From: a virus
Reading direction: 5' to 3' (one strand)
Length of the DNA: 32,546 nucleotides
IMG/VR virus record: IMGVR_UViG_3300033273_000654
Location: 1-32,546 of that record
The notes under the pieces: generated by a model
Seen by the model: the letters and a program-made list of their open reading frames with translations, nothing else
What the model was told of the DNA's origin: nothing
Databases searched by the model: none
Translations under genes and position numbers: made by a program
In this document: one piece after another, positions 1,935 through 29,356 of the stretch
How the letters are laid out: each line of letters begins with the position of its first letter
Position numbering within the stretch: the stretch's first letter is position 1

Positions 1935-2780
1935 TCAGATGTCAATTTGTCTTGTAGAAGAGTAATTTTTAGAATCGGCAAAGAACTCCCATTCTTCATC
2001 GAAACCAAAGTTATCTCCAGGTTGGAGGAGTTTGTGATCCGCTTCATTAATAACACCATCATTATTTTTGTCCTCTTTGGCAGTTGGTGTAACTGTATAT
2101 CTCATCTCACGTTTAGCGGTCTTAGTATCTGTACTTGTGTACATATCAACTTGAACCTTACGGATGAGACCATCACTACTATCAGCAATAGGACCGAACA
2201 GATAAGTTTTTGCTGTGAATTGTAGCGTGTATATTAGGGATCTTCTTGTATCAAAATTTCCTTCATAATCATCTTGAAATCCTATGGACTCAAGAATAAT
2301 TGGAATATCTCTCTTTTCTCCGATTGAATCTACCAAATCCACAGTCAAGTTAAAATGTGGTTGAAAATATGGTAAAATTTGCTCTATAATTTGTAATGCA
2401 TCATCATTTAATTTTGAAAGAATATTAAGCTCAAATCCAATATTGTACGGTACAGGCATGAATACTTTTTTAACTTTGCCACCATCATCACAAGCTTTAA
2501 ATGTTTGAATTAAACTAGACTTTCTAGTAGAATCGTACTGTATTGATGTCATCTCAAATGACATTCTAGGCATTGTAATCTGAACTGCCTTATTCAGATC
2601 TGCTTGTTGTGATATTCTTGCTAAAAACTTTTGGCTAGGTCCATATGCAAGAGGAACTTTCATATCACTAGCATCAACACCAGAACCATCTGTATGTCTG
2701 ATGTGAATATCATTAAATAATGTACCAAACGATATAATCGTTTTTCTAATTATTTCGTGGTAATAATATGTACCTAACAT
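1935..2780 (-). CDS. 15: Tail sheath terminator/completion protein gp15
   Basis: Protein of 281 aa (T4 gp15 is 272). In T4, gp15 forms the hexameric ring that caps the tail tube and sheath and connects the tail to the neck. The N-terminus MLGTYYYHEIIRKTIISFGT and the central MPVPYNIGFELNILSK region with the following Q-I-hydrophobic-PYFQP segment are typical of the family. The ATG overlaps the gp14 stop by one base (TAATG). Odd feature: residues 237-248, DKNNDGVINEAD, fit a canonical EF-hand/dockerin calcium loop (acidic or Asn at positions 1, 3, 5, 9 and 12, Gly at 6, hydrophobic at 8), close to the C-terminus (GFDEEWEFF follows). Calcium binding is inferred from the motif, not shown. Confidence 0.93.
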   Translation of the reverse strand: MLGTYYYHEIIRKTIISFGTLFNDIHIRHTDGSGVDASDMKVPLAYGPSQKFLARISQQADLNKAVQITMPRMSFEMTSIQYDSTRKSSLIQTFKACDDGGKVKKVFMPVPYNIGFELNILSKLNDDALQIIEQILPYFQPHFNLTVDLVDSIGEKRDIPIILESIGFQDDYEGNFDTRRSLIYTLQFTAKTYLFGPIADSSDGLIRKVQVDMYTSTDTKTAKREMRYTVTPTAKEDKNNDGVINEADHKLLQPGDNFGFDEEWEFFADSKNYSSTRQIDI

Positions 2781-4225
2781 TAATATGTACCAAATGGATT
2801 GGATTCTGTGAAGTCTAAGATATCGTCTGCTGCAGATTCAAACTCATCGTTCTCGGTATATTTATCATAAGTATCATCCTCCGTATAAATCCTGATTGGA
2901 TATGATGCACCAGACTCCTGACCAACTAAGTTTTCTCCAGGATAGAATGTAGGTCTAGTAATACCTATACCAACATTTGCAACTTTTAGAGTAAAAGTGT
3001 CTTGATCCCACTCTTTAACTCTTGCTTCTAATTTAGATCTAGAACCGATAACAATTTCGTTAAACAAGTATGTTCCAATTCCAACACCAGATAATACTTC
3101 TGGATCTGCGATAGTAACTTCTGGAGAAGAACTATACCCTCTTCCTGGATCTTGAACGTAAATAGATTTAACTACACTATTAGATCCTTCAGTACCAATA
3201 GATGCAATACCAACTGCTGTATGGGCAATACCACTTGATGGTGGACCTGCAACAGTAACAATTGGTGCAGTTCCATAACCAATACCACCATCAGTAATAG
3301 TAAATCTAATTACACCTTGACCACTAGTTATGATAGAAGCAGTCGCAGCTGCTCCAACACCGCCACCACCAGTTATTGAAATTGTTGGTGGAGTTGTATA
3401 TCCGGCACCAGCATTTGTAATATAAATTTTATCAACAGAAGTAACACCACCACTAGTTTTCAATAAACTTTGTGCAGTGGCTATATCACCGACTTGACCT
3501 GTTGGTGATGGACTAAGTGTGATAATAGGAGGAGAAGTATATCCACTTCCACCATCATTGAGGAATATTTCTTTTACATATCCACTTGGTTCAGATCCAA
3601 GAATACTTGCTACAGCAGTAGCAGTTCTGCCAACACCAACTAATTGCAAAGTTGTGATATATCCTTCATCTTGAACTTGAGTGTCAATACCTTGAATACT
3701 TGTATCAATAATTTCATCTTCATATTCAAATAGTTCACACTTTAGTTGATAAACATAATTTTTTCCTAACTGAAAGAAAGGATCTTCATGTTCAACAAAT
3801 TTTACTTCAAATAATCTTTGACCTAAGGGAAAATATACTAAATCTCCTTCTCTAGGACGAGTTGGAGTGGGCATGATAGAAGTGTTTGTACCATCATCCT
3901 GACCTGCCATAAATGGTGCAATAAAATCTTCAAATCTTTCCTTAGAAACTGTAAGAATTAATTCATCCCTAACACTTACACCAAATTTTGTTAGAATATC
4001 TCCTGCTCCACCATATCCCTCAAAGGTATTAACATATGCTTCAATAGAAAAATTATCATCAAATTTTGATGTTTGAACCTCTTCAATAATTGTCTTTATG
4101 TTTACATATTTTCTTGGAATATAAGTTACCTCAACACCGTGAAACGACAGGTGCTCATTTATTAGATCTTGGACTAATCTTTGTTCAGATGCAGTCCCTT
4201 GTAAGAAAAACGGATTAAGTGCCAT
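2780..4225 (-). CDS. 14: Neck protein gp14 with inserted beta-repeat block
   Basis: Protein of 481 aa, against 256 aa for T4 gp14, which joins gp13 to close the filled head and form the neck. The conserved part is residues 1-185 (MALNPFFLQGTASEQRLVQD, EVTYIPRKY, NTFEGYGGAGDILTKFGVSV, VYFPLGQRLFEVKFVEHE, YVYQLKCELFEYEDE) and the tail from about 388 (FNEIVIGSRSKLEARVKEWD onward, ending ESNPFGTY). Between them about 195 residues form four repeats keyed by GSGYT (227), GAGYT (274), GIGYG (315) and GRGYS (362). Removing them gives roughly the T4 length. Start and stop both overlap neighbours by one base (TAATG), giving a tightly coupled 13-14-15 set. The repeat block probably projects from the neck surface; that is inference. 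Confidence 0.93.
   Translation of the reverse strand: MALNPFFLQGTASEQRLVQDLINEHLSFHGVEVTYIPRKYVNIKTIIEEVQTSKFDDNFSIEAYVNTFEGYGGAGDILTKFGVSVRDELILTVSKERFEDFIAPFMAGQDDGTNTSIMPTPTRPREGDLVYFPLGQRLFEVKFVEHEDPFFQLGKNYVYQLKCELFEYEDEIIDTSIQGIDTQVQDEGYITTLQLVGVGRTATAVASILGSEPSGYVKEIFLNDGGSGYTSPPIITLSPSPTGQVGDIATAQSLLKTSGGVTSVDKIYITNAGAGYTTPPTISITGGGGVGAAATASIITSGQGVIRFTITDGGIGYGTAPIVTVAGPPSSGIAHTAVGIASIGTEGSNSVVKSIYVQDPGRGYSSSPEVTIADPEVLSGVGIGTYLFNEIVIGSRSKLEARVKEWDQDTFTLKVANVGIGITRPTFYPGENLVGQESGASYPIRIYTEDDTYDKYTENDEFESAADDILDFTESNPFGTY
3071..3658 (-). repeat. Four tandem GxGYTxPP protein repeats inserted in gp14
   Basis: Coding repeat covering gp14 residues about 190-385. Repeat starts (DGGSGYTSPP, NAGAGYTTPP, DGGIGYGTAP, DPGRGYSSSP) are 47, 41 and 47 residues apart. 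Each unit is a hydrophobic-alternating strand, the G-x-G-Y turn, a strand such as ISITG, a Gly/Ala-rich A-x-A strand, then the next. The pattern suggests short beta-strands with glycine turns. The same unit occurs in gp8, the DUF4815-type protein and the giant protein in this window. Confidence 0.85.
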
Positions 4226-5055
4226 TATCCAATAAAGTCGAGGGGTGGAAGTTCATATTCCATAGACATTCTTGATTTTATTTCTGCAAGTTCTTGTTCT
4301 GCTTGTTGCAGAATTTCTCCACCATTAAGCTCAATACCACCAGGAAGTTTAACACCTCTAAACTTACTGAGGTTTCTACCCCACTGGCGTTTGATCAAAG
4401 CAGTTAAGTATCTTTTTAAGAAACTATCATTATAAATCTGTGTAAATGATGCTGGGTCTAATGCTCTATAACATTCGATTACAATAAACTCTCCTGCAGG
4501 TTGAGAACCCCAATCAATATCAAGATATAATCTATCTTGTCTTTTATTAAATCTAACTTGTTTATCTGGAGTGAGAAGAAAATCAATGTCCTCAAGATAT
4601 GACTTAACCATTGCATATTGCAACAATTCGACCGAGTTGAAATAATATAAATCGTTTAAAAATAATTGATACTTAATGCTAAACATTCCACCAGAAATGG
4701 AACTAGTATCAAATTTAAAAATCTTTTCAATACCAATTACTGAATCGGGAACTTGAATATAGTTCTCAGTTTCATAAAAATTATATGATCTACTAGAAGT
4801 ATCGGTAGCGGTGGTGGTAACAATTCCCACACCACTTGTACCCTTACCTTTACCCCTATTTACATCATCTTCTGTAATTTTATACTTAAGATACATTTTT
4901 TCAACTCCGTCAAAATGACGTTCATTGAAATATTGAATGGCATCATCAACCAAATCATCAATTTGGTCATCATCCACATTGATTTCCAATACTGGAGCAC
5001 CAAGTTGACGTAAGCAATAGTCGATTAGTCCTTGCCTAGTTGATGGTTTTGCCAT
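4225..5055 (-). CDS. 13: Neck protein gp13
   Basis: Protein of 276 aa (T4 gp13 is 309). With gp14 it attaches below the portal after DNA packaging, retains the genome and forms the site to which the tail binds. Family signatures: residues 6-55 TRQGLIDYCLRQLGAPVLEI with a run of Asp and QYFNERHFDGVEKMYLKYKI; residues 125-165 with the YQLFLNDLYYFNSVELLQYAM segment split by strands; and residues 215-246 KRYLTALIKRQWGRNLSKFR and KLPGGIELNG, which is the hallmark of the family. A short Gly/Thr-rich loop lies at 68-88. The gene starts one base after the stop of the 62-aa coiled-coil gene and overlaps gene 14 by one base. Confidence 0.95.
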   Translation of the reverse strand: MAKPSTRQGLIDYCLRQLGAPVLEINVDDDQIDDLVDDAIQYFNERHFDGVEKMYLKYKITEDDVNRGKGKGTSGVGIVTTTATDTSSRSYNFYETENYIQVPDSVIGIEKIFKFDTSSISGGMFSIKYQLFLNDLYYFNSVELLQYAMVKSYLEDIDFLLTPDKQVRFNKRQDRLYLDIDWGSQPAGEFIVIECYRALDPASFTQIYNDSFLKRYLTALIKRQWGRNLSKFRGVKLPGGIELNGGEILQQAEQELAEIKSRMSMEYELPPLDFIG

Positions 5056-5056
5056 A

Positions 5057-5245: not shown

Positions 5246-5248
5246 TTA

Positions 5249-6955: not shown

Positions 6956-6956
6956 G

Positions 6957-7598: not shown

Positions 7599-7599
7599 A

Positions 7600-10500
7600 T
7601 TATGCAAGTGCGATAGCTCTAAAGTCTCTTAATTTAACAGGAGTAGATTCATTAGTTGTTGACATAACAACTTTAATTGCAAAAGCAGTAAACTGCTCTA
7701 AGTCACCAACAGAGAATTGATATTCGGAAAATCCTTTATCATCATTTGCAGCAACTTTAGCATCTGCTCTTCCACTATTCTTATCCGGATCAATTACCCT
7801 ATCACCAAATCCATCTCCATCATCATCAATTAAGTTATCATATCCTGGAAATGGAACGAAGTTTGGTTCAACACCACTAGAATCTGCTTTGAAAAGAGCG
7901 TAGAAAACTCTAAAATCTGCAGATTCTGGTCTATGTGCAGCAATGTAAACTTTCAGACTGGTTGCTGGATTTGCAAGTGAAATTGCTTTAGTTACAAATA
8001 CTGCTCCATGAGGATCATTATTTGTATTACTTCTAGAGTCACTAACATAATCATCAATCGGTTTATTGACTTTGTTTCTACCAATAACAAATCCTGCGTT
8101 CTGCAAGTCCAATACTGGAGACAGATTTTCATCTGCTGATTCCATATCAATTCTTAAAGTTAAAGATCTCTTGCGTGGAATACCTTGTATTCTTGCAAGT
8201 TCATTAACTCTAGATGCAATCAATCTTGGTGTAGGGAACTTTGTTCTCTTATTCAAAACAACAGGTTCAAATCCTTGATCGAGGAATGAAACTTCATTTC
8301 CTCCTGCACTAGTTCCAGAAATTGTTCTAATATTGCATTCCACTTTAGTGCCTTTACCTGGAGTAATGACATTAAATTCGGGTTTGATCATAGTATATTG
8401 GTAATTTTGAGAAATACCAACATCTTTTCCACCAAATCCTTTTTTGGATGCAAAGTTTAACATTGAATTGCCAGTATCTCTGGCAGTTGGGAATTGTGTG
8501 GATCTATCAAATTCCAGATAATAGTAATCAAGATTTGAATTATCATCAGAATGATAAGTTGATGGAATATCATGAGTGGTATTAATTCTCATGAGAGAAA
8601 CACCATTTACTTCATAAGACTGGATGGAAGTATTTTTGGAATGAGTGGTTTTAGTGGATCCGTTTAAACCTCTATCTGAAATTGTAAGAGTTCCTGCATT
8701 TCCAGTACCAGCAGTTACTGCACTATATGCAACAACTTCTTCATCAATAAGAGCATATCCAGAACCAGAAGTAGAACCTTCATAAGTTGCAAATACTCTT
8801 CTATCTTCAACAGAAACTGTAGTATCATTTATACCAAACTCTGCTGTAGTAACAGTTGTTTGAGTATCTGGTTTTACATCTTCAATTATAATTTTATTGT
8901 TTCCACCATGATGGGCATGATTTCTTTGCTTAATTCTGAAAACATTTCCAGTATAATTATTATCTACTAGAGAAGATGTACCATTTACATCTACACCAGA
9001 ATCTGCAGTTGTAGTTGGACTATTAACTGGATCAGTATAATAATAAATGTCTTCAGTATTAGTAAAGTTTTCACCCTGAACATTGGTTAGATAGAGTGAA
9101 TCAACAGAAGCAGTACGGCTTGTAACTGTGATTTTCGCTCCAGAACCACCTGCACCACCAGTACCGCCCATGTCTGCGGTTGTAATTCCTAGTGGTTCGT
9201 TACCAATGTATCCACTTCCTCCATTAGTAATATTAACTGATGAAATATTACCATCGAGGTTGGTGGTGATAGTTGCCTCAGCACCCTCACCTTTTCCTGT
9301 TAGAGAAAATAAACTAACACCTGTTGAAGTTGTAGATGGTTTATAATCAGTTCCACTACTTGCGATAGAAACTGATGCTGTACCTGTACTAATTGGAGCA
9401 CCCATTTTCTCAACATAACCATTAATTCCAGCATTACCAGTTCCCTGAGTAACTTTAGTTCCTAGAGTCACGGCAGGATTTAGAGTACCACTAATAGGTA
9501 ATTTTAGTTTTCTTGGATACGATTCAATTGGATTAGCATTCAATGTTTGTGCATTATCACCTTTTGGCGTAATGTCACTATTATAAAATTCAACAGCACC
9601 AGATGTTTTGAATTTTGCTTTATAAAGAGTAAATGTTAAATCCTGAAGTTGACTTGGAGTCCAAATTGTACCATTTTGAGACTTAAAGAGAGAACCACCA
9701 ATGTACTGTTTAGTTACAACTACCTTACGAACATTGGGTAGTTGTGATGAGTTTACAGTCTTTTCACCCATTTTTGCTGTCCACATCTCATATCGATCAG
9801 ATGCAGGTGACAAGATAACGATTGCATATTCAGTATCTGGTTCCAAATAAACCGGTGATTCAAATTTAACATTTGTTGCTACTGGTTTTGTTGGATCATT
9901 CGAAACATTAATTTGATTTGGATTTAGTGCAATTTGAGTGTAATCTTGAACTAAGAATGAAGTTGGTGTTCCAAGCTCCATAGTTCTAAGTTCAACAAAA
10001 ACTTTTGCTTTAGGATCTTTACGAGCAAAATATAAATCGAAAGAAGTTAAGAATGCGCCTCTTTCATCAACAGTAAATGATTGTGCAAGAGGATCTCTAT
10101 GTGCTGCTTTAACTTTGACATCAACATCAACTATACTCCTTTTTCTGCGTGGTTTGGGTGGATTTCTAACAGAAACTTTAGATGTTTCTTGTGTTAAAAT
10201 AGTTCCACTACCACTATAAGTACCAATTGCTGATGAAGCATATCTAGTAGATCCAGGTACTGCTGTATTAGATGGTGGCAATGCAGTAATCTTTACAGTC
10301 TTTGTGCCAGATTTAACTCTGGTTTTTGGTGTTGGTGTTGAATTTGGATCTCTAATAAAGAAGGATCCAATAACGTCTCCCCAGTTGTCAGATATCAGTC
10401 TATCATCAGTAATTTCTGCTACAGCACCGGTTGTTTCTCCAGTAACTTTAAATCCTTTTTTAACAAAACCATAGAATTTTTGTCTTTGGGCAAGTTTATT

Positions 10501-13500
10501 AATAGCAATATTCATTAACGTTGAAGTTGGTGAATATCCTTTTCCTGGTGCAGGAGCCTTTTTATCGAAAGGATTAATCTCATATGTTTCAGCATATCTT
10601 GATGGCTCACCTAAACCTGCTGCAATTTCTGGACTATTTCTTGTGCCAGATTTATGGTTCGGTCTTTGAAGTGGCATATAACCAACTCTCTTACCGTTCT
10701 TATTGTGTACAATAATATTTTCATCATGACTAAAAGTTCCAGATTTCATTTGAATTTGAAATAGTTTTGGAACTATATCAACTTGCTGACTGTCAAGGTA
10801 GAAATAGTGTCTTTGATTTGGTCTCAGACCGTTTCCATAGAATGCAACATTTCTTGAACGCATCCAAGGATCTGCTTCACCCGATACTTTTACATCCTCT
10901 ACATAATCAAATTCTCTAGAAGGTCCTCTAAGTTTTGGTTTGAATCTTGTAGTCGTTGTAATTTTTGTGGTAGTGATTGCTTTCTTAACTTTTTCACCTC
11001 TACCACCACCTTTGTCATATTTTTTAATTTCTGTCGTTCTATCAACATCTCTAGTAACCGTTGCCTCTTGTTTCCATTTGGCACCAGTAGATTCTGTTCT
11101 ATGATCATTAACATAAATTGTCCTAACCCAATTATCAGAGGCTGGATTGAGAATAACACCTCCAACAAAAACTAAGACATTGAATGGATTCACATTTTCA
11201 GCTGTTGTTGCATGTGGTTGATTAATCCATTTCTTTTCTGTATACTTAAGTGTAATAAGATCACCAGTTTTTTGACATCCACTTCCAGATGGAAGTTCTA
11301 AATCTTGACTTAAATCTGCAGTATCTGGATCAATAGATGGATGTAATCTCAATTCTGCATCCATAGACCAAAGATCCATAGGTGCCACTAAAGTACCACT
11401 TGATTTTTGAAGATCTACAGTAGATAAACGTTGATTCATGATCGACTTATTTCTAAAGTCGCTAACAACAAATCCACTCTTGAATCTATTCAGACCACTT
11501 GCATCGGTAACATTTATTGACTTGGCAGACAATTCGAGCATAGTGAGACTTGTAACATCTTCAAGATTTTCAATCCTATCTTCAAGTTTGCCAATATCAC
11601 GCATCGTGAATCGTCTATTGTCGCGAAGTATAACTCTAGGATCTCTTGTTGTGTTATAAAGATATGGTGGTAATAATACCTGAGCCAATTCCATTGAATC
11701 ATCAGAAAGCACTGGTGCGTCTGGATCATCTGCAGGTACACCCTGAGTTACTTCGATCTCTCCTAATTTGTTGATTGTAACTAAATCAATTCTTGGAAGA
11801 TAATATGTATATCCAACAGAAGAAGATTCGCCTGGAGAAATTACATACTTATAATTGTATTCAAACTCTCTATTTTCAAAAGCAAAAGGAGACTTGGTTT
11901 CATATCCAGTAACATCTGTCCAAGGTTTAACTCTTGGTCTAAAGTCAAGTAAATCACTAGCACGGAGACCATTCGGAGTGAATGGAATATCACTTGTAAA
12001 TCTATCTGCAGTATATGAATTTACAGTGAAGATATCTCCACCATTTCCTGCACCAATATTATAATGATCAAATATAATTTTTAATTTACGATCTGGAGTT
12101 GGACTTCCTTCTCTTCTTTCAATTCTAGAATAATCACAGAATTGGTGTCCTTGAGCTCCAACAAGACGATAATTTGCGGTTATATCCAAGTAACTGCCAG
12201 GATTAACTTGTTGAATAACTGCTTCAACAGAAGAATCTTTAAATGTTACATCTTCACCAACAGTAAATGTATCATCATTTAATGGAACATAATCAACTGT
12301 TGTTGATGTCCTTGAAACAACTTGTCCAATAGCTCTACTCTCATTACCAAGTATTTTTTCACCAACAATAACACTTTGATCAAGTGACAATCCTGTTGAG
12401 AATGTTAATTTATCTAATACCGGTGCATCATTAGTTGTTGATTCATAAATTGCACGTACATTAATTACATCAGGAACATTTAATGAAATTTCCTCATCTT
12501 CAACTCTAGTTCCATAATAGCGACTAGTAGAAAGTCCAGTTGCTGTTGAAATACCAGAAGTTCTTACAACATCAAGTGTCGAAGATTTTACAAATTCTTT
12601 TGTTTTATTAGTAATTCCCTCTTTTTTAAGTGTTACATTAAATGTAACATTATTGGCATTTAGTAGAGTACTACCATTAGTAGTGGTTATACCTGTAAAT
12701 TTAATTGTCTCTCCATTAGCACCTAAGGTAAAATTACTAGAATCAATTTTAACAGGTGATCCATTACTATTTGTAATACTATATCTCTCTTGATCGAAAG
12801 ATTCAAAAAATGCTGTTACAATACCAGCACTAGTATCTAAGGCATCGGAGATAGCAATAGTTTTTTCACCACCAGTAACTGTTTGTCCTCTAATCTGCTT
12901 AGTAATAGTAAGATTTGCTGTTGATAAATCTACAGAAGCAATATTCTCAACAGGCATTGGAGCATAAAGTCCATTTTCACCATAACCAAGAACTCTTGGA
13001 ACCATTAAAGAAAATGTATGCTGTCCAGTAACTCTTGTGTTACTACAAACATTAGTAACTGCAAAAGGTGCTTCTCCCAAATTAATAGTTTGTCCACCTG
13101 GATTAACACCAAGAACTACGTTGTATGTTGGATCTGTATTATTTGCAGTCTGATATTTTAAAATTGAACCTTTCTTGAGACCACCATTAACACCCTTGAA
13201 AAATCTACCAGCAACTCGTGCAGTACCAGCAGAAGCATCAACATCTAACAAATCCTTTGCACCAACATTTGCTAATGGTTGCTCATAAAGAACAGTATCA
13301 GCAACAAAGTCTGGAGCAGCACTAATTCCTGTTAATCCACTGAAATCTTGATAAACCGACTTAATATCAGATGTATCATAAACTTCAACTCTAGTAATCG
13401 AAGTTATAGTTTCATCTACTTCATTAATAATTACATCCTCACCTTTCAGGAAATTTCCTGAAGTTTGTGAAAGATATAACTTTTTCCCGTCTCTTTTACT

Positions 13501-16642: not shown

Positions 16643-19600
16643 TTATTGAGCGTAGAATGGTAGATAATTATCTAATTCTAAAGAAACACCATTTTCGGGT
16701 GGTTTTCTAGATCTAACGGCACCACTCTTTTGTTCTCCAAAGTCACCTCTTCTTTGAATTGATGGGAAATTTGATAATTCAGTATCAACTGTAAGTCCAG
16801 TAACACCGATTCCAATTCCATTATTTCTAGTATCGAAGTTGTAAATTCTTCCGAAAGAAATTCTACCCAAATGTGTACAAATTCCAGATTGACTTGGGTT
16901 CCAAGCACCAGTAATAGCAATTCCAGTTACAGGACTATCTGTATGAATATTACAAATAATTTCACCATCTTCAAGAAGTCCAGTCTTAGAATGAACTTTA
17001 TATATGTTATCTAAGAAAGTTGTACCAATACCAACAACTGAATTGTTATTGCTATCTACCGAAGTAACTCCTTGACCAACAGTAGTATCATAAATCATGA
17101 CTGGATATCCTACCTGAAGATCATTCGTATCTGCAGCAACATTAAAACTTCCACCTAAAACTGCATAATCTTGTAATGCAGTAAAATTAAATTTTAAAGC
17201 CAATGGATGACCATTTGTTCCTGGACAGGTACTAATTCCAGTGATAATACCACTAAATCCCTGAACATTTAATACATTTGTAATTTCTTCAGTAAGTACT
17301 TTTGGAGATTCGATAATAGTAAAGGGTGGGTTTGTAGTTGTATATCCAAATCCAGGATTAGTTATTGTAACTGCAGAAACTTGACCATTTGTGATGGTAG
17401 CAGTAGCAGTTGCAGTAGTACCAACTCCAACTCCAATAGATTTAGGTGCAGAAAACTTAATATCCATGATCGAGCTTGTATAACCAGCACCAACATTTGT
17501 AACAGTAATTGCACTAACAGTTCCTGCAGCAGAAACAGTAGTTGTAAATTCTGCAGATGTTAATTCCTTATTGTCAGTAAAGAATGCATCAAAATCAAAT
17601 GATGATGTCTTATTAACATCCAAAATTGTGTTATCATATACAAAGAACTGTGCATTATCGACAAATATTTCAGTATCTGATGGCGATACATCTCCAATTA
17701 TTTTTGCAGTTGGGAAAATTTTAGGTTCATAGACATCTCTTGCTTTAGTGACAATGTTTCCCCTAACAAACATATCATTTTTTTGTTTAATCCAATCAAT
17801 AGGTCTGAAATTATTCTCATCAATACCATTACCAGTATAAATTTCAGTTTCCACAGTATCAGAACCAGGCATTTCGGTAATTGTTCTACTATTTTCCTGT
17901 GCGGATGTAGAATAATTTGGATGTTTCCCTACAAATAAATCATCACCAACTTTAATGGTCGATACAACTTCAACAGAAACAGAATCAACATTTTCTTCAC
18001 CAATATAGAAGAAAATATCAATTCTATCTTCTGGTTGTGGTGCTTCAGTAAAGATGAATGAAGTTCCTCCAGTAAATTGGTATGCATATCCTGGAGTTTG
18101 TAATACACCATTGACAAAAATAAGAAGTACAGAATTTAAATCAATATTTTGAGAAAGTGGATTTGCAGGATCTAATTCAAAACTTAAAAGTTCTCCTTTG
18201 TAATACAATGGGAATCTAGTTCTAGTTCCATTTTGATATCCACGAATACTATCAATGAAATCCATTTCACCGAAAGACCAAGAAGAGAATGTATCAGTGA
18301 ATGTTTCTAGAACTTCAAGTTGGAAGTTTGAAATTGGTTGAGCAAGATCTTTTGCTGTTACAAGACCAACAACTTCCATAACATCTCCAGGTTTAAATCC
18401 ATAACCAGTTCTAGTAATTTTGAAAGATTCGATGTCAAACAATGTAGATCCAATTCCAACTGTTCCTGCAGCACCAACAGTAAGATTCAATAAAAGATTT
18501 TTTCCAGTTTCGGTAGTTGCGCCAATACCAAGTCTTGATACACCAATGACTTCCATATTTTCATAATTTGGTTCGGGAATATCAAGAAATGGTTCGCTAT
18601 ATCCCGTACCAGGATTAGTGATATTAAACGCAAGTGTTCCACCAGCACCAACAATTGCTTCAACAGTTGCTCCACTTCCAGTACCACTGAGATCTGTTAC
18701 AGCAACTGAGACAGGACTTCTATATCCAGAACCAATAGAAAGATCATAATATCTTGTAATTGTTCCATCCTTTTGATATAAATGTGTAATTGTTGAAGGA
18801 CCAACATTAACAGTTAATTCTGTATCAGAAATAATATTGTAAATATCCAATGCATAATCATAATCTGGGAATATAGTTGTGGTAACACCAGCATGTACAG
18901 AATCGCAACTAAATTCAAGACCATCAAGTTTTACTCTATGATCATAATTTAAATTATGATTACTTGATGTTTCAATTCTAAGAAGACCACTTATCTTGTC
19001 ATAAGATGCTGTGGAGATTGAAACAGCATCAGCAGGTCTATACGTATTGACGCCAACAATGTTTGTAATTTCACCACTGTTATTTTTCTCTACTAAGACA
19101 GATGCTCCATATAATGGTGCATATCCAAGACCAGGAGTAGAACCATATGATACTATCAGACCACCTCTAGGAACTTGATTTTGATTAATATCAAATTCTG
19201 ATTCAATTTTAGTTCCATCAACTGAAGTGATGCCAGTATAAACAACACTGGTAATACCTGCATTAATATCTCTAATAATGTCATAATTATTACCAGTGTT
19301 GTTTTCTGTTGATGGTGTTTGGAATACTCCATTGATAAACAGAATTCCATTTCCAGGAGAAATTCCTGTAGTATCTGCACCACCAACTTTTAAAGTGTAT
19401 GTCCTACCAATACCTGTAAATTCATTTGAAATATCATCAAATACCATATTTTCATCATAATTTTGTCTCAGGAATGTTCTACCAGAGAATTCTGCTCTTA
19501 CATATGGAAGATTTTGCTCATTTCTTCTTGCGCGAGTATTTCCTTTTGGAGGATCCGTAAAGAAAATTTCATTTTTAACAATATTGAATGAACCTCTATA

Positions 19601-22600
19601 AAGTTGAACATTTGCCCCATTAAGATGAGTTGTAGAGGCACTACCAACAAAACCTCTTGTGACAGAAACTGTATTAAAAGTTGCACCAATACCAGATTGA
19701 ATTACACCTGTAATAGGACCAAGAATTTCCCCATTGACGTTACTTGAAAAACCAACACTTTCAATCTTCATATACTCATCATCAATACGAAGAATATCTC
19801 TTGGTTGAAGTGATGAGATTCCACTTATATTAAATGTACTAATTCCTGCAGAAATACCTCCAGAGAAATAATGACCATTATTTTCAAGAATGTAATTAAT
19901 TGGTGTAAATGTAATCGGTTTTTGTACAATTCCATCAATACCAATAACTGTCTTAGAAAGTTTTTTGGTAAATTCTAATTCATGTGCATTACCTAATCCT
20001 GCACTAGTGAACGTTATAGCAATTCCCGCCCTCGCATATTCTTCCCTAGATGCAAGTTGGAATGTATCTGGAGTGATTGCAATAGCATAAACTTTTTCTG
20101 GAAGCACTGTGGTAACAATACCCGCATAGTTTGCTGTTGCACCAATACCCATTCCAGTCTGCCCAATACCAGTAAAAGTTGATCTTGGAATATAAGTCAG
20201 ATCTTCACCAGTGTTAAAGAAGTGATTTGGATATGTAAATATTCCAGTTGCGTAATCAATTTTTGTAGTATCTGCTGGATCAAATGACTTATTGTAAATT
20301 GGATTGCCTTGATAAGTGAGTGGGAAATTAACCCTATTTGCTCTCAATCCATTGATACCATCAAAGGCACTAAGATAGAGATAATGGTTTGTTGGACCAT
20401 ACTTCAATGGTAATGCCTGGTTATCAAAGTCCATCTGTCGGTAAAAGACCTCATTGAATGCCTGAGCAGTCAAATCTCCACCACCATAATATCGTGTATC
20501 TGGATAGAAGTTCAGGAAGAAATTATTACCACTTATCTCTGAACCAAATGTACCAAGACCAACAGTCTCATTTACTTGAGAGAATAGTCCAGGAATTACA
20601 GTAACTTCTTTATCTACAAAGTTTGCTAAAGTATAAACTTGATGTACTGCTGATGTTTCTCCTACAGAAACACGAACAATAGATGTTGCGGAAGAATTTA
20701 AATCAAAGTCAAAGGTTCCAACTCTAACAACATCTGTACCATAACCGACAGTGCTCTCAAAAATACCACTTCTTTCAGTTCCTGCTGGTTGATTATTAAG
20801 TAGGAATCTATATGTTCCAATACCTGAAGAAGTGGTGCCAAATCCAACAATATTGGCACGAACAGTTAATGAATTTGTTGATGATATTCCAGAATTGATT
20901 GCTCTAAAGGACACAATTCCAGCAGTAGAATCGTATGTGGCAGTTACAATTCCTATTTGAGATGCACTATAGGAAAGAGTATTCGTGTCAAAATAATATT
21001 CACTGATGTGAGTATTAGTTCCATCAAAATCTAATGTTGCTTCAACAACATTCGTGTTACCAAACAAATCTGAAATTTCAATATTAGCAAAAGCACCATT
21101 GAAATCGGATACATTAAATTCTTTAAATGTCTTGATGCTAGAAGCAGTTCCTACACTAGTAATTCCTGCAACAAAAGATCCTGTAAGATCAATAGATCCA
21201 AAACTTTCGATTCCAATACCAGACTGACCAGATGGAAGACCTTGATACAAGTATGTCTTTTTGAGAATTTTAATATCATGATCTCTATCAAATGGATCTG
21301 TTGGTACAAATCTTAAAGATCTTCTTCCAGCAGAATCAATATTTGCTTCAAAATTTCCAAGTTTAATATTACTATAAGCAGTATGCTTTTCAAATAAGAA
21401 AACATCAAGAGATGTAGATTGGTATAATAATTCGCTAAGTTGAATATCACCAGTGTCTGGATCTTGAATCTGAACCAAATATCTTACATGATTATCAAGA
21501 AAATCTATTACATCTATCTCTACAAATCTATCCTTAAATCCTCTACTGGAGAATTTATCAGAAATATCATCATGAATTAAAACTCTATTTGTTTTACACT
21601 CAATATAGTCATTCAGTTTTCTATTTTGAATCCTTAGAGTATTTGATTGTTGTAAGTTTGAATTTAAAGGATTTAATCTTGGATTATCATCAAGTGCATT
21701 ATCAAAATTATTGATGATATCTACTCTTCTTTCACCAACAACATCCAAAATAACAATTGCAGTTGTTGTGCCACCCAAACTTACTATGCTAGAACCAGTT
21801 GATTGAATTCCAACATCGGCAAAGTTCTTAAGACCTGCTGGATGGATAAGACTATTTACAGGATTACTTTGTTCTGCCCAAGTAATTGGACTTTTAATAG
21901 AATATGAAAGGTTTTGATAATAGTCATTATCTGGAATTGTCTGATAGTCCTCACTAAGTTTTCCAATATTATCATTCCAACCAACATTCAATTTTGAAGA
22001 ATAATCAATTTTAAATCTTGCTCGTTTAGTATCAACAGATATAACTTTTGCAATTACACCACTAATAAACCCTTTAATAAGATCATTCTTTTTAAGTTTA
22101 TACCTACCCCCAACTTTTATATAATCGTCTCTTACAAGAGAAACAGAAAGATCTCTTTCTTCCCATTTTGGCGATTGTCCAAATGCAACAGGTTGACTTA
22201 CATAAAGATTTTCATTTTTTGCAAAAACTCCACGTTCTTGAATTACATCAATTTCGGGATAATTCTTTGAATTAATAATAGTTGCAAATCCATTTTGATA
22301 TGTTTTAGCAATACCTGCATTAGTGGTTAAACCAACACCATTCTCATCTAATATCTTAAATACAAGTGTTGCTGGACTTGTATTAGCATAATCAGTAACT
22401 TCAAAAAATCTATAATCATAATTCGCAGAATTATATCCATCTCCAACTCCAGGTATTGCTTGTTCAACACCTTCAATGAAAACTTTATCTCCAACAGCAA
22501 ATGGTGCTATATTAAAACCAAGAGTTGGTGTTTCTAATGTGCAAGTTGCAACTCCACTTGTTGCAGACACCATTGATACAATACCAACACCATTAGAGTT

Positions 22601-25600
22601 ATCAACACAAATAATTTTATGTGGTTCTGATTCTAAACCAAATATTGGAGCAATTTGCTCAATTTCAGAAATTGCTCCAAAAGGTGCTTTTGCAACTAAT
22701 GAAGTAGAATCGACAATTGCTTTTCTAGTCTCATTCCAAAGTAAAACATTTGGACTATTAAGATATCTTGCTCCAGCATTTTTGATATTTACTTCTTTAA
22801 AAACATCTAGATTATCAATAGAGACAATTGGTGGAACACTAGCTTCTGGTCTAAGAGTTTTATCTGAAGGATAATCATACCCAACGTCTTTCAATCTAAG
22901 AGTTTTTATCCTTCCAATAGAAGTTGATACACCTTGAATGTTTGCATTAACACCATCAACAGAAGTTATACTTTCAACTTTAGGAAGTGTATCAAAATTA
23001 AATCCTTCAGAAATAATTTTTACCTTTGCAATAGATCCATTCAATGCAGTTTCTGATTGAGTATTGTATGATAAAACATCACACTGTGATGAATTATAAT
23101 TCAATACACTTGGATATCTATAAGGAGAAATTTTAAAGGTAGTACTCGTGACACCTGCAATCCCATAAACTTTATAACTTCCATTGTACTCACTATCAAT
23201 ATAATTAATTTTGGAATAATTTACTACATTAGTATCAGCAGTACTAATATAACCACCTTTCTCAAAAGTATAATAAAGTTCTGATGGTACATTTTCAGAA
23301 TAATTAATAGTCAAAGATGCATTACCTGTACCTCCATCACCAGTATTGGAAACATTAAATTCTCTACTATCACTAGAAGTTACATATTCATTAATAAATT
23401 CTTTCTCTCTGTAAATTTTTAATTTATATCCTTTAAGAGACTCATCATTTAAAAGGAATTTTAGATTTCCATTTCTAACAACATTAATTTGTGGATTTAT
23501 TAATCCGATAGTATGAATACCAATACCAGTATCAATTATATTAACTTCATTTCTAGTGTTTACATTTGTATCATATAAAGTTTCTGCCAACTTAAATTCA
23601 TTATCAGAAACTTTAATAGTATAATAAGAACCTACTGCAAGACCTGAAGCAACATTATTTGCTTCAAGAAATACTTTATCTCCAGTTTTAAATCCATGAT
23701 TGGTATATGATAATGTATTAGTATTTGTGTTAATTCCTGTAGTAGGAATACCCAAAGGATTTACAATAATTTTATGATCATGATAATTGATTTTAATATT
23801 AAGTGCAGCAGTAGTTCCCAATCCAACTATAGTATTTGGATTAACTGTTAACTTAATACTATCACCATTTTGTAGTCCATGTGTAGCAGAAGTACCGACA
23901 AGGGTTACAATTCTAGAAACGTCTCCGGTAACTTGTTTTTTCTGAGTTTCAAGCAAAAATTCATGATGGTCACTACCAGCAAGTTTGAAAAATACTCCAT
24001 CAGATGCTGTAATGTCCGAAAGTTGAGTCACAAGACCGATATGATCTGGTCCTTTTTTAATAACATAAACTTCAGATTCTCTTGTTACTGCATCTGGTAA
24101 AAAGAAGTTTGTAGATCCTGCTTCTGCCGATACAGTTATTGGAGTTGCGTAAGATGGAACATGGAAACGAAGTTTTTGTCCAGATTTAAATGGATGATTT
24201 GGAAGATAGATTGTACGAGTTGGAACATTTACAGATACAAAAGTTCCATCTGGACGTTCAATTGCATTGAGAGATATAGAAGCACCTTGAGTGGTTCCAA
24301 TTCCAACTTGCTTTAATGCATTGAAATATACAATATCATTCCTTTCAGATGTAAACTTATCTGTAACTACAGGTAAAGTAATTCTATCATTGTGAAGATT
24401 TAAAGTACTCCCAATAGAGTGTGCAGCTCCAGGACCTGTATTAAATCTCTTAACTTTTAAGATACCATTACCATAATCATTAAGAACCCTTACAGTTTCT
24501 TCACCATCAGAAGATACAATAGTTATTGAGTTACCTACGTTTAGATTTTTAAATTTATTAGAAATATATATTGTTTCAGTTAATGGACCTTGACCTGCAC
24601 TATATGCGGTCATAGTAGACGCAAGAGCCACAGATTCTGAAGTAAATCCTACTTTCTTTGATCCCTCTAATCTTGCAATAGATGTTGAAAGTCCACTAAC
24701 AAGAACAGCATTTTCATCAAATAAATCATACCCACCATTACGATAGTATGCAGATACTTGACTTTCATTATCCCAGACAAAAACTGAGTTTGGATAATTT
24801 TCTAATGTGGTGCTCAAAGAAGTAACATCTACTCCTTTCAATTCTGTTACTTCTCCTCTTACTTCAGAAACATCAAGCCCATCAGAATTAAAGTTTACAC
24901 GATCACCAATCCTATATCCTTTACCTCCAGAAATAATTTTAACTTCGGGAACAGATCCCTTAGTTACTGCTTCAACAATACCAGGTTGATCAATAGTTTC
25001 ATAAGATTCATTAAAGAAATCATATTCTATTGATGGCTCATTTACATTATATGGAAAAGTATTTCTCACTAAATCACTTGAGTTGAAATCAAATGTTTGA
25101 TCTAAAACTTTATTTTCATTGATAAAGTTTGATTTAAGTGTATTTCCTACAAAGTACGGATATTCTGGAACAAAATCATTAATTGATTGAACATTTTTTA
25201 CACTAGCAAAGTATGCATAAGTTCCATTTGGAAATTCAGGAGTTTTGCAAAATCTTCCATTATGTTTATCAAGATCTCCAGAATTATTATAAACATAATC
25301 TTCGATAAAGAAACCTGCTTCAAATTGTGGTCTATCTATGACGCTACTAGTGCTAATCTCATAACTAGACTGAATTCTTTTAATCGCAGACCCTGCAGTA
25401 TCCGCATCAGTATATGCAAAAGGTCCATAAATTGGATTTCCATCATATGCCCAACCAATAATTGGTGAGTGACTACCATCTAAAGATTCTAAATTACCTG
25501 CAAGATCTTCAGAATATCCATAAATTCCATAATTAAGATATTCATTTTCTTTATTATTACTCAGACTTGCAAAAATTTGATTGGTTTGATTGTTTAGTGA

Positions 25601-28600
25601 AATCTTTCCAAATCTAAATGCATCGTTAATTGTAAGATCTCTAACTCTAGTATCAAATATTGCACCAGAACCTCTTGGATCTATAAAAATAGATGTTGAA
25701 TTTGGATTATATCCAATACCTGTGTTAAGTACAATAACATTATCAATCTTACCATCTTTTACTACAGGGCGTAATAATGCTCCAACTCCACCCGATGGAT
25801 CTTCAATAGTAATATTTGGTATGGAAGTATATCCAGTTCCCTTATTAAGTATTTGGACATCTTCAATTCTACCATTAACAATAATTGGATTTACCTGAGC
25901 ATTTTTGCCCTTAGAGATGGAAACAAGAGGTTTTTTATGAACATTAAATGTTGTTGATCCATATCCTGCACCATTTTCATACAGATAGGCATCATGTATT
26001 GGTCCAGTTATAACAGGAGTAAAAGTAAATGTACCTAATCCAATATAAGTTGCTTCAACTTTAATTTCTGGATCTTTGAATATTTGATATCCAGTGCCTT
26101 TAGAATTTAATTTTGTTATTTTAGATTTTGTTAGATCTGTTGTAATTGATCCGCCGACACCAACATTAATAAGACTAAAAGAATCATCAGATACTTTTAC
26201 AATAGAATATTGATTTGTGGTAGATAGTCCTTCAATTACTGTTCCAGTGGTTTCATAGTTTACAATCTCACCTGTTTCAAAACCATGATTTTTAAAGTTA
26301 ATTGTATCAAAAGAAGTGGAAATACCAGATGCCTTTACCCTAAGTTTTCTGTTGGAATATCCAGAACCAGGATTTAAAACTCTAATAGATCTTAAATTAT
26401 TTTTAGATTGCGTTCTAAATTTGTGAATACCAGGAGCAGCGGTTGCTTCTGCAAGACCAATAGTATTAATTCCTAATCTAGTTACATTATTATTTAAATC
26501 TACTTCTGGAGCATCTGCTTTTGTTTTATAAAGTTGAATTGTTGATGTATTAATAAATCCTACAATATATTCATCTCCACTTTGAAGTGTGCTAGTTTGA
26601 GTATTAGTTGCATCCCCAGCAACACCAATTGCAAGTGGATCATTTCCATTTTGATTGTAAATGATTACATCACCAGTTTTTAATCCATGTGGTCTATCAA
26701 ATGTAATAGTTTCTGCATCAATATCAATTCCACCACCGAGAGCAAGTCTTCTACTATCAAACTTCATCTCACGGAATCTGGATCCAACAACTGGTTCCAA
26801 TTCACATCCAGAACCATTACCACCAGTTAAACTGATGGAAGTAACACTTTTAACATCAAACTCTTGTGGATCTACATAAACATCTTTAACAGAACCTTTA
26901 ATATAAGGTTGTACTTTTGCAGTTTCTCCTACTCCTGCACTGATTGTAATTTCTGGAGGACTAAGAACATCATAATCTTTACCACCATTTAATACATCAA
27001 AAGATGATAGTGGACCATAGTAAACTTTATTTTGAGAATTTGGACTTACTATTTCAACACCATCAATTAAAATACCAATAGAACCATCAATTCTTTTATC
27101 TGGATTGATATCATTATTAGATGGTTTTAATGGAAATTTTCTTAAAATTCTATTATCAGCAATTTTTCTATTGCTATGTCTCTTAAGTGTAAATGTATGC
27201 GTGCCAGCAACTGTATTTGGTCCAATTCTTCTGTGTTCACCACTTTCAAGAAGTTCTTTAGAAAGATAAAGTTTAATTTTTCTTTCAGATACTAATACAA
27301 CATAATATGTTTCACCAGATTCTAATCCAGAGTATGGATTATCTGATGTATAGACTATCTGATCACCATCACTAAAAGAAATTGGATTTGAAAATTCAAC
27401 TGAATCATACGCCCTATAAAATGAATCAAAGTCTGAAAGTGAACTACCAGGAGATGTTTCTACAGTAGTTTCTTCAACAATATTTTCTACAATTTCATAT
27501 CCAGGCAATGAGTTAGATGCAACATACCCATATGTTCCATCATTATCAGTATACACATTTAAGACGTTTGAAACTTGCTTATCATTACCATATAAAAGAT
27601 CTGCACCAGAACTAGATGCTTTTACAATTTTTCTTCTAATACTATATGATCTTGTTGGATCTGGTACAAATCCTGAAGTATTTGTTAAAGTAACAATTTT
27701 ATTTGCAGGATCAATGGATGATACTGTTGCAAATGATCCAGAGGGTGTAGATGGATAGACAACCGTCCCGATACCAATTGTACCTGCAACAATTTCTACA
27801 AAATCTCCAACTTTTAATGATGCCTCATTAATAACAGAATCAAATCCTAAAGAAAATGTAGATCCATTTACTGATTCTGCAATATAGCGAGTGCTAGTAT
27901 TGTAAATCCATGAATTTGCAAATACTTCTTTGAAAGTCTGATCACCTTCAGGATTTGGAATTATCTCCCCCAAATTTCTTACACCAATTTCCTCCCCATC
28001 TTCCATAAGAGGAATATCTTCAAGAGGTTCAAATTCGGAAAGTACGCCAGTTACACGTAAATATACTTTTTTAGTAATATCACCATCTTCATATCCAAAA
28101 ACACTTTCATCAGATCTAATTAATTGTCCAAGTTTTATATTGACACCAATTCCACTATCTCTACCTGCACCAACACAACCATAAAATTGATTAATACTCT
28201 TAGAAGTATATGTGATAACAGTATTTGAATTTACTATTCTTACTGGATTGGATGATGAAGTAACAAAATTTACAGACTCAGTATTTGTAACAAGAGTTCC
28301 AGTTTGACCAAATCCAATTGTAGAATCTACTGTAATAATAGAATCATCTGGATTTACATCTTCAATAACTCTAGAGGCACCAGGAATAGAGAATAGTCCT
28401 CGAATATGCTGCCTATCATCATTTCCTACAAAAATACCTAATCTGTAAAATGTTTCACCGTTTCTTGTAAATATTTCAACCTCAGATATTGATGCACTTA
28501 CATTTGTATCACCAGTTTTAAAAATAGTCTGACCTTTTAGTTTAAAAGGATCACCATATTCATAAAGACCAGTTGTTTCATTTAAAAATGGTAAATTTTT

Positions 28601-29356
28601 AACGACAAAAATTTCTCTTCGAATATATTCTGCAGAAGAAGGTTTTACAAGTCTCTGTTCAAGATCTATAACCTCCGCATTGGCACCGTAGAGGACCTTG
28701 AAGAGTATTCTAATAGACTCTTCGATACCTTTTGCCTGATAGAAGTTTCTGGCGTTTTTAATGAAGTTTCCAACGTCCAGATCATCTACAAATTTAAGGT
28801 CTTCAAATCCAGGAGTAAAAGTTGCTTTTAATTTTTTATAAAATTCTTGAAGAAATAGAACACTTAAGTTTGTTACAGTCTCACTAGTTTCATGAGTAGA
28901 TGCTTCTGTCTCAGAGAATAAAAGAGTTTCTCTATTAGTGAAGTTAATGGTATCAGAAATATTTTTAGTGTATCCAGTGACACCACTAAAACCACGTATA
29001 CACCCAGTAAATGATGTATCAGTTTTTCCAGTATATGTAATAATTTCATCGTTGATCTTTAAAAGACCATAATCATCCGGAAATCCTTTTGTTGATTCAA
29101 CACTAATGGTTGTTGCAGAAGCATCAATATCCGAAGAGAGAGTTGTAGATCCAACAATAACCTCTGGAACAAGATTATCAACCTTAATATAACGATCAAG
29201 GTTGTCCACCAGGTCAATATTACCTCCCTGATATTCCTGAGAGATATAATATTGTTTAAAAAAGTCTACCGATTTTGGAAAATCGGCAACTAAAAATTCT
29301 GGAAGTTGGCTCTCAATAATCTTATTGAGTTGCACTCTCTTCTCAAAATTCGACAT
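16643..29356 (-). CDS. Giant baseplate structural protein in gene 7 position (4237 aa)
   Basis: One intact frame of 12.7 kb between genes 6 and 8, where T4 has gene 7 (1032 aa); cyanophage counterparts are often labelled VrlC. Residues 1-60 and 160-255 (VQLNKIIESQLPEFLVADFP; NARNFYQAKGIEESIRILFK; VLYGANAEVIDLEQRLVKPS) look like the conserved baseplate-attachment end. Residues 72-137 are inserted with INDEIITYTG and TGCIRGFSG. A YHYH domain sits at about 1285-1390 (GWAYDGNPIYGPFAY, EDYVY, NGRFCKTPEFPNGTYAYFA). About fifteen GxGY repeats, several HGFxTGDxVxY units (near 655, 885, 1020, 1880, 3045) and three NGVxQxP units (near 3140, 3335, 3744) fill the rest. SD GAGGAAAT is encoded by the end of gene 6. 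Likely wraps the wedge and projects arms; function inferred from place and family. Confidence 0.88.
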   Translation of the reverse strand: MSNFEKRVQLNKIIESQLPEFLVADFPKSVDFFKQYYISQEYQGGNIDLVDNLDRYIKVDNLVPEVIVGSTTLSSDIDASATTISVESTKGFPDDYGLLKINDEIITYTGKTDTSFTGCIRGFSGVTGYTKNISDTINFTNRETLLFSETEASTHETSETVTNLSVLFLQEFYKKLKATFTPGFEDLKFVDDLDVGNFIKNARNFYQAKGIEESIRILFKVLYGANAEVIDLEQRLVKPSSAEYIRREIFVVKNLPFLNETTGLYEYGDPFKLKGQTIFKTGDTNVSASISEVEIFTRNGETFYRLGIFVGNDDRQHIRGLFSIPGASRVIEDVNPDDSIITVDSTIGFGQTGTLVTNTESVNFVTSSSNPVRIVNSNTVITYTSKSINQFYGCVGAGRDSGIGVNIKLGQLIRSDESVFGYEDGDITKKVYLRVTGVLSEFEPLEDIPLMEDGEEIGVRNLGEIIPNPEGDQTFKEVFANSWIYNTSTRYIAESVNGSTFSLGFDSVINEASLKVGDFVEIVAGTIGIGTVVYPSTPSGSFATVSSIDPANKIVTLTNTSGFVPDPTRSYSIRRKIVKASSSGADLLYGNDKQVSNVLNVYTDNDGTYGYVASNSLPGYEIVENIVEETTVETSPGSSLSDFDSFYRAYDSVEFSNPISFSDGDQIVYTSDNPYSGLESGETYYVVLVSERKIKLYLSKELLESGEHRRIGPNTVAGTHTFTLKRHSNRKIADNRILRKFPLKPSNNDINPDKRIDGSIGILIDGVEIVSPNSQNKVYYGPLSSFDVLNGGKDYDVLSPPEITISAGVGETAKVQPYIKGSVKDVYVDPQEFDVKSVTSISLTGGNGSGCELEPVVGSRFREMKFDSRRLALGGGIDIDAETITFDRPHGLKTGDVIIYNQNGNDPLAIGVAGDATNTQTSTLQSGDEYIVGFINTSTIQLYKTKADAPEVDLNNNVTRLGINTIGLAEATAAPGIHKFRTQSKNNLRSIRVLNPGSGYSNRKLRVKASGISTSFDTINFKNHGFETGEIVNYETTGTVIEGLSTTNQYSIVKVSDDSFSLINVGVGGSITTDLTKSKITKLNSKGTGYQIFKDPEIKVEATYIGLGTFTFTPVITGPIHDAYLYENGAGYGSTTFNVHKKPLVSISKGKNAQVNPIIVNGRIEDVQILNKGTGYTSIPNITIEDPSGGVGALLRPVVKDGKIDNVIVLNTGIGYNPNSTSIFIDPRGSGAIFDTRVRDLTINDAFRFGKISLNNQTNQIFASLSNNKENEYLNYGIYGYSEDLAGNLESLDGSHSPIIGWAYDGNPIYGPFAYTDADTAGSAIKRIQSSYEISTSSVIDRPQFEAGFFIEDYVYNNSGDLDKHNGRFCKTPEFPNGTYAYFASVKNVQSINDFVPEYPYFVGNTLKSNFINENKVLDQTFDFNSSDLVRNTFPYNVNEPSIEYDFFNESYETIDQPGIVEAVTKGSVPEVKIISGGKGYRIGDRVNFNSDGLDVSEVRGEVTELKGVDVTSLSTTLENYPNSVFVWDNESQVSAYYRNGGYDLFDENAVLVSGLSTSIARLEGSKKVGFTSESVALASTMTAYSAGQGPLTETIYISNKFKNLNVGNSITIVSSDGEETVRVLNDYGNGILKVKRFNTGPGAAHSIGSTLNLHNDRITLPVVTDKFTSERNDIVYFNALKQVGIGTTQGASISLNAIERPDGTFVSVNVPTRTIYLPNHPFKSGQKLRFHVPSYATPITVSAEAGSTNFFLPDAVTRESEVYVIKKGPDHIGLVTQLSDITASDGVFFKLAGSDHHEFLLETQKKQVTGDVSRIVTLVGTSATHGLQNGDSIKLTVNPNTIVGLGTTAALNIKINYHDHKIIVNPLGIPTTGINTNTNTLSYTNHGFKTGDKVFLEANNVASGLAVGSYYTIKVSDNEFKLAETLYDTNVNTRNEVNIIDTGIGIHTIGLINPQINVVRNGNLKFLLNDESLKGYKLKIYREKEFINEYVTSSDSREFNVSNTGDGGTGNASLTINYSENVPSELYYTFEKGGYISTADTNVVNYSKINYIDSEYNGSYKVYGIAGVTSTTFKISPYRYPSVLNYNSSQCDVLSYNTQSETALNGSIAKVKIISEGFNFDTLPKVESITSVDGVNANIQGVSTSIGRIKTLRLKDVGYDYPSDKTLRPEASVPPIVSIDNLDVFKEVNIKNAGARYLNSPNVLLWNETRKAIVDSTSLVAKAPFGAISEIEQIAPIFGLESEPHKIICVDNSNGVGIVSMVSATSGVATCTLETPTLGFNIAPFAVGDKVFIEGVEQAIPGVGDGYNSANYDYRFFEVTDYANTSPATLVFKILDENGVGLTTNAGIAKTYQNGFATIINSKNYPEIDVIQERGVFAKNENLYVSQPVAFGQSPKWEERDLSVSLVRDDYIKVGGRYKLKKNDLIKGFISGVIAKVISVDTKRARFKIDYSSKLNVGWNDNIGKLSEDYQTIPDNDYYQNLSYSIKSPITWAEQSNPVNSLIHPAGLKNFADVGIQSTGSSIVSLGGTTTAIVILDVVGERRVDIINNFDNALDDNPRLNPLNSNLQQSNTLRIQNRKLNDYIECKTNRVLIHDDISDKFSSRGFKDRFVEIDVIDFLDNHVRYLVQIQDPDTGDIQLSELLYQSTSLDVFLFEKHTAYSNIKLGNFEANIDSAGRRSLRFVPTDPFDRDHDIKILKKTYLYQGLPSGQSGIGIESFGSIDLTGSFVAGITSVGTASSIKTFKEFNVSDFNGAFANIEISDLFGNTNVVEATLDFDGTNTHISEYYFDTNTLSYSASQIGIVTATYDSTAGIVSFRAINSGISSTNSLTVRANIVGFGTTSSGIGTYRFLLNNQPAGTERSGIFESTVGYGTDVVRVGTFDFDLNSSATSIVRVSVGETSAVHQVYTLANFVDKEVTVIPGLFSQVNETVGLGTFGSEISGNNFFLNFYPDTRYYGGGDLTAQAFNEVFYRQMDFDNQALPLKYGPTNHYLYLSAFDGINGLRANRVNFPLTYQGNPIYNKSFDPADTTKIDYATGIFTYPNHFFNTGEDLTYIPRSTFTGIGQTGMGIGATANYAGIVTTVLPEKVYAIAITPDTFQLASREEYARAGIAITFTSAGLGNAHELEFTKKLSKTVIGIDGIVQKPITFTPINYILENNGHYFSGGISAGISTFNISGISSLQPRDILRIDDEYMKIESVGFSSNVNGEILGPITGVIQSGIGATFNTVSVTRGFVGSASTTHLNGANVQLYRGSFNIVKNEIFFTDPPKGNTRARRNEQNLPYVRAEFSGRTFLRQNYDENMVFDDISNEFTGIGRTYTLKVGGADTTGISPGNGILFINGVFQTPSTENNTGNNYDIIRDINAGITSVVYTGITSVDGTKIESEFDINQNQVPRGGLIVSYGSTPGLGYAPLYGASVLVEKNNSGEITNIVGVNTYRPADAVSISTASYDKISGLLRIETSSNHNLNYDHRVKLDGLEFSCDSVHAGVTTTIFPDYDYALDIYNIISDTELTVNVGPSTITHLYQKDGTITRYYDLSIGSGYRSPVSVAVTDLSGTGSGATVEAIVGAGGTLAFNITNPGTGYSEPFLDIPEPNYENMEVIGVSRLGIGATTETGKNLLLNLTVGAAGTVGIGSTLFDIESFKITRTGYGFKPGDVMEVVGLVTAKDLAQPISNFQLEVLETFTDTFSSWSFGEMDFIDSIRGYQNGTRTRFPLYYKGELLSFELDPANPLSQNIDLNSVLLIFVNGVLQTPGYAYQFTGGTSFIFTEAPQPEDRIDIFFYIGEENVDSVSVEVVSTIKVGDDLFVGKHPNYSTSAQENSRTITEMPGSDTVETEIYTGNGIDENNFRPIDWIKQKNDMFVRGNIVTKARDVYEPKIFPTAKIIGDVSPSDTEIFVDNAQFFVYDNTILDVNKTSSFDFDAFFTDNKELTSAEFTTTVSAAGTVSAITVTNVGAGYTSSIMDIKFSAPKSIGVGVGTTATATATITNGQVSAVTITNPGFGYTTTNPPFTIIESPKVLTEEITNVLNVQGFSGIITGISTCPGTNGHPLALKFNFTALQDYAVLGGSFNVAADTNDLQVGYPVMIYDTTVGQGVTSVDSNNNSVVGIGTTFLDNIYKVHSKTGLLEDGEIICNIHTDSPVTGIAITGAWNPSQSGICTHLGRISFGRIYNFDTRNNGIGIGVTGLTVDTELSNFPSIQRRGDFGEQKSGAVRSRKPPENGVSLELDNYLPFYAQ
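18941..18960. repeat. 20-bp perfect palindrome in the giant gene
   Basis: atcataatttaaattatgat reads the same on both strands. It falls in codons for NLNYDH. Symmetry stops on both sides. Function unknown; it may be chance in AT-rich DNA. Confidence 0.65.
22645..22680. repeat. 12-bp inverted repeat with 12-base loop in the giant gene
   Basis: ttggagcaattt (22645-22656) and aaattgctccaa (22669-22680) are exact complements. In the mRNA they would pair as a 12-bp hairpin. The encoded peptide FGAISEIEQIAPIFG is itself near-palindromic. No intergenic position, so not a classical terminator. Confidence 0.75.
25187..25504 (-). other. YHYH domain inside the giant protein
   Basis: Coding segment for residues about 1285-1390. 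It shows the family pattern H-S-P-I-I-G-W-A-Y-D-G-N-P-I-Y-G-P, a serine/tyrosine segment (SSYEIST), EDYVY, LDKHNGRF, TPEFPNGTYAYF. The final motif reads YAYF rather than the eponymous YHYH, so the name-giving histidines are absent. Domain function is unknown. Confidence 0.8.

Follow-up and report, generated by a model that had tools for sequence, protein, structure and literature searches.

Our analysis of a 32,546-nucleotide stretch of viral DNA (the window) confirmed a single repeat module in four otherwise unrelated virion proteins: the neck protein gp14, the baseplate wedge protein gp8, a DUF4815 structural protein and a giant protein at the gp7 position. As judged by profile comparison, the copies in these proteins are one homologous module, as the original prediction had held: the orthologue alignments of gp14, the gp7 C-terminus, the gp8 insert and the DUF4815 segments match each other with E-values that, for the main copies, range from 1e-6 to 1e-14. 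We read the repeat as a domain of two units, probably an Ig-like β-sandwich, with six predicted strands in the order C0-A1-B1-C1-A2-B2. Its copies descend from one module, are inserted as two-unit blocks and are concentrated in tail and neck proteins. We propose that loops or hairpin turns in many of the tail and neck proteins of T4-like cyanophages have received a two-unit, probably Ig-like domain as an insert, and we lean, if only slightly, toward a promiscuous tail-surface insert that probably serves weak multivalent adhesion.

The window comes from a T4-like cyanomyovirus; the record is a 32.5-kb virus fragment, and the survey of carriers in this phage covers the genes found on it. On the minus strand its long genes run gp25, gp6, the giant 4237-residue protein, gp8, the DUF4815 protein, a fibre-like protein, gp13, gp14, gp15 and gp16. 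The same order is present in P-SSM2 and S-SM2, whose giant protein carries the annotation gp7, and the window gp14 is 67% identical to that of P-SSM2. The four carriers, all on the minus strand, are gp14 (head closure; 2780..4225; Pfam T4_neck-protein, E 3e-32; phrog_460), the DUF4815 protein in the VrlC position (7600..15036; Pfam DUF4815, E 3e-52; gene position as P-SSM2 T4-GC 109), gp8 (15040..16599; Pfam Phage-Gp8, E 6e-15) and the giant protein (16643..29356; phrog_2885; gene order as P-SSM2 gp7).

The four copies predicted in gp14 were recovered by profile as an array of four units, or two modules, at residues 217-398 (window 3032-3577, minus strand, as are all copies below): unit 1 at residues 217-262 (3440..3577), unit 2 at 263-303 (3317..3439), unit 3 at 304-349 (3179..3316) and unit 4 at 350-398 (3032..3178). 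Residues 190-208 (3602..3658), with AlphaFold2 (AF2) strands at 190-195 and 203-207 and a weak profile match, are the probable leading strand or strands C0 of the first module. In T4, gp14 forms a hexamer (PMC12270204); if the same holds here, the neck of the window phage would carry 12 modules. In gp8 one module occupies residues 219-283 (15751..15945) and is inserted relative to T4 gp8, with 136 residues between the flanking matches in the window protein versus about 52, by coordinates, in the T4-like gp8 of PDB 9f4a. The DUF4815 protein, expected to hold one or two copies, has one pair and a weaker overlapping pair at residues 1882-1985 (9082..9393), also identified by family profile comparison. 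About fifteen units had been seen by eye in the giant protein; that number is not clearly reached, and we find instead about 5 pairs above decoys together with weaker ones. The strongest are the C-terminal module at residues 3947-4018 (17303..17518), which is kept in orthologues, and those at 1164-1227 (25676..25867) and 3533-3596 (18569..18760); weaker modules lie at 785-829 (26870..27004; 14.8 bits) and 1082-1135 (25952..26113; 12.7 bits), with a decoy maximum of 8.8.

Two further features were observed in these carriers. A YHYH domain (Pfam E 1e-26) lies within residues 1277-1387 of the giant protein (window 25196-25528), directly after the module at 1164-1227. A second motif, roughly G..V.G..SGA.A.V...(5-20)...F..GE, is repeated in several module carriers; a pattern search confirmed only two places, both in the DUF4815 protein (residues about 498-533 and 892-928; gene 7600-15036), and by eye it is also seen at gp14 residues 400-441 and gp8 residues 375-415.

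A profile built from the four gp14 copies alone reached the giant protein at 18.3 and 15.0 bits, as had been anticipated, with 4.9 the best score among 1,200 whole-protein shuffles. A two-unit profile drawn from gp14 only gave 31.9 bits for the C-terminal module of the giant protein, 28.4 for that at 1164-1227 and 18.2 for that at 3533-3596, as well as 13.4 and 11.4 for the two pairs of the DUF4815 protein, against a decoy maximum of 6.7. The degenerate copy noticed in gp8, taken as a single sequence, stays at the level of the decoys (9.0 bits versus 8.8), and it is convincing only at the family level, where the gp8 orthologue alignment matched gp14 (E 3e-7), the DUF4815 protein (8e-9) and the gp7 C-terminus (3e-6). 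One additional gp7 segment, with an alignment of only 10 rows, matched gp8 more weakly (0.0011). Because hhalign E-values are uncalibrated for single comparisons, weight was placed on the controls: segments elsewhere in the same proteins gave profile-profile E-values of at least 0.008, and none of 60 column-permuted gp8 alignments fell below 0.03.

Each half of the module is marked by the motif (N/D)xGxGY, whose G and Y are invariant in orthologues. AF2 modelled the gp14 array (69 sequences) at a pLDDT near 90, with about three strands to each unit, and the C-terminal gp7 copy (45 sequences) was modelled at pLDDT about 94 with six strands, C0-A1-B1-C1-A2-B2. The predicted strand order is identical in the two models, in line with the shared fold that had been expected, for the two carriers that the comparison covers. 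Within gp14, unit 1 scores highest with unit 3 and unit 2 with unit 4, in each case narrowly, and the second unit of gp7 resembles the even-numbered gp14 units. The unit of 40-47 residues described originally makes up one half of a module that has two units and about 75-90 residues; as an independent domain it is disfavoured by the even unit numbers and by two empty sites that each differ by a pair.

The pair is the unit of gain and loss in gp14. The most direct evidence for the pair as the quantum is the empty site of S-TIM4, whose gp14 (310 residues) is 74% identical over 310 aligned residues to that of S-MbCM100 (390 residues); the two differ by 80 residues, which are one two-unit block between FTVGE and AEVK. 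T4 gp14 is also without a module. Among 262 distinct complete gp14 proteins, which are related and whose counts are thus not independent, we counted 2 units in 63, 4 in 178, 6 in 6, 8 in 6, 10 in 2, 12 in 3 and 11 in 4, using a broader unit profile that removed some odd numbers of a first, narrower count. The only odd count is 11, and in those arrays a foreign segment of about 265 residues breaks up the series of units (L240:3423-4256 and the gp14 of L217, L223 and L244). A laminin-G-like domain was considered for these four arrays; the likeness is by eye, has no Pfam or PDB match and is not claimed.

A profile of 16 two-unit segments was then run over whole cyanophage records and named genes. 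Further cyanophage carriers are gp5 (hub and tail lysozyme), several fibres, a PA14-annotated protein, a 1380-residue wedge protein, T4-GC 460 and S-TIM4 ORF108. Matches were found in 26 of the 208 ORFs from eight cyanophage segments, and 25 of the 26 are annotated or placed as tail, neck or fibre, a proportion that is not a whole-genome figure as these segments hold mainly structural genes; the remaining match is weak and lies in a 100-residue ORF. The gp8 module was present in all six cyanophages checked. Outside the cyanophages, the tail sheaths of Pseudomonas phage Persinger and Escherichia phage ep3, which are Jilinvirus-type phages, have one module where P2 FI has a short turn, a clean insertion, and two Cobetia phages, Carin-1 and Carin-5, have the module in tail spike proteins. 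Large structural proteins of cyanophages were among the matches when predicted viral proteins were searched by structure, and a search for plasmid carriage gave no match. A single-sequence genome scan recovered one bacterial relative, an immunoglobulin-repeat protein with two modules (L343:2-4990), in which the module is apparently nested inside Ig domains; we suspect that the Klebsiella pneumoniae (MAG) label of this contig is a binning error, as its gene content points to another phylum. The idea of a spreading module is partly backed, by clean insertions relative to module-free relatives and by many more carriers than the four first named; clear gain and loss are seen only in gp14, and the gp8 and C-terminal gp7 modules keep their position among relatives.

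S-TIM4 ORF108 (L428:30210-36920), a YadA-annotated structural protein, carries module copies near residues 1857-2147 and has in common with the window fibre-like protein (5249-6955) the stretch VDGTTTTINST...DPI. In an evolution experiment on poor hosts, many mutations accumulated in this ORF (PMC6224464).

Searched against the PDB, the two-unit profile found one molecule, Dpo31 (residues 450-506, E 2.8e-6). Dpo31 is the tail spike of Cobetia phage Carin-1, an EPS depolymerase, and its residues 434-536 are an insert named D3* (PDB 28lx, 28mg, 8ck1; PMC13317679). Compared directly with the window families, D3* gave E-values of 1e-7 for DUF4815, 1e-6 for gp7, 4e-6 for gp8 and 1.5e-5 for gp14, and the other parts of Dpo31 gave at least 0.03. 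Foldseek found no significant PDB match for the gp7 module or the repeat region and did not have Dpo31 among the matches listed for either the gp14 or the gp7 model; the fold that the window modules would share with D3* is for this reason proposed from sequence. D3* is reported to have an Ig-like fold and to protrude from the spike; it shows weak DALI similarity to sugar-binding domains, and the depolymerase site was speculated to lie at or near the D3/D3* interface (PMC13317679).

By analogy with D3* and with the Ig-like domains of phages (PMC7602432), the modules may project outward from the virion, and a large number of weak contacts on each particle could help to keep the phage on host-surface or extracellular glycans before irreversible binding. 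For glycans in particular, the D3* insert of Dpo31 would be the one, indirect, support. We count against this preferred reading the absence of Dpo31 from the Foldseek matches listed and the derivation of the even counts from related sequences. The position of the gene 14 product, in the neck and far from the cell during T4-like adsorption, also counts against adhesion.

The main rival is that the same inserted module is a packing or spacer domain inside the virion, bracing adjacent subunits (the neck to whiskers or fibres, or the wedge to the giant protein) and making no contact with receptor or glycan. We regard this as possible but doubtful. It would suit carriers such as the neck, wedge, hub and tail-sheath proteins, which are not receptor-binding in T4, and the constancy of the gp8 module in the cyanophages checked is what one would expect of a structural part. 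However, close gp14 relatives have none or anywhere from 0 to 6 modules, so it is dispensable there, and the solved relative D3* protrudes from its spike. A more ambitious version of the adhesion reading, which we consider unlikely, is that marine phages have in the module a general adhesion cassette, and that module dose, not receptor-binding sequence, sets capture strength. If it were true, cyanophages would tune their hold on cells or exudates through the gain or loss of complete two-unit modules, from 0 to 6 per gp14, with more in gp5, gp7, gp8 and the fibres. Less probable still is a surface ornament with no specific ligand, which would shield the tail, keep particles from aggregating or be almost neutral, and would persist because a compact domain is tolerated as an insert in loops. 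The wide variation of gp14 copy number and the use of turns as insertion sites are in line with it, and Ig-like folds occur in decoration proteins that can help to disperse particles (PMC7602432), but the conservation of the motif residues in orthologues and the retention of the module in several proteins of each cyanophage examined suggest selection. Finally, that Gly/Ser/Thr-rich β strands are alike merely in composition, by convergence or chance, is scarcely credible: G, S, T, A and V abound in the unit and gp8 alone is at decoy level, yet the observed matches stand far above every control, whether shuffles, local shuffles, permuted alignments or control segments, and chance or composition is rejected as their source.

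The module is an unmodelled domain family that recurs in the large structural proteins, so far uncharacterised, of a virus group abundant in the ocean, and it ties them to a solved structure, D3*. Added to domain libraries, the family should annotate parts of many giant virion proteins that are now hypothetical. The gp14 proteins with 0 and 1 module are natural, nearly matched pairs for a direct test of its role.

No name for the motif was found in our literature search. Pfam gave no match, immunoglobulin or other, at E <= 0.1 over the modules of the window proteins, and NCBIfam none to the module in the proteins tested. What is new is a family outside Pfam and NCBIfam, as far as the proteins tested go, of which only D3* has been described so far, without these relatives; that a single type of Ig-like domain is reused across many virion proteins is already known. 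Among the sites that a survey lists for Ig-like domains on tailed phages are tail fibres, baseplate wedge initiators, major tail and head proteins and decoration proteins (PMC7602432). The window module resembles these in that one type of probable β-sandwich is reused across unrelated virion proteins, baseplate wedge initiators included; unlike them, it is built of two similar halves and is matched by no Pfam immunoglobulin model. The BACON-domain tandem repeats of crAss-like phages (PMC6949934), a different domain family, offer an analogy only, as tandem domains on a phage protein for which carbohydrate binding is suspected. The closest parallel is D3* of Dpo31, with sequence homology over the two-unit core, two GxGY motifs and insertion into a host domain, a loop insertion such as we see in gp14 (S-TIM4 versus S-MbCM100), in the tail sheath (versus P2 FI) and, by coordinates, in gp8 (versus T4-like gp8). 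Dpo31 has a single module in a trimeric β-helix depolymerase, whereas the window phage has single and tandem modules in its neck and baseplate proteins.
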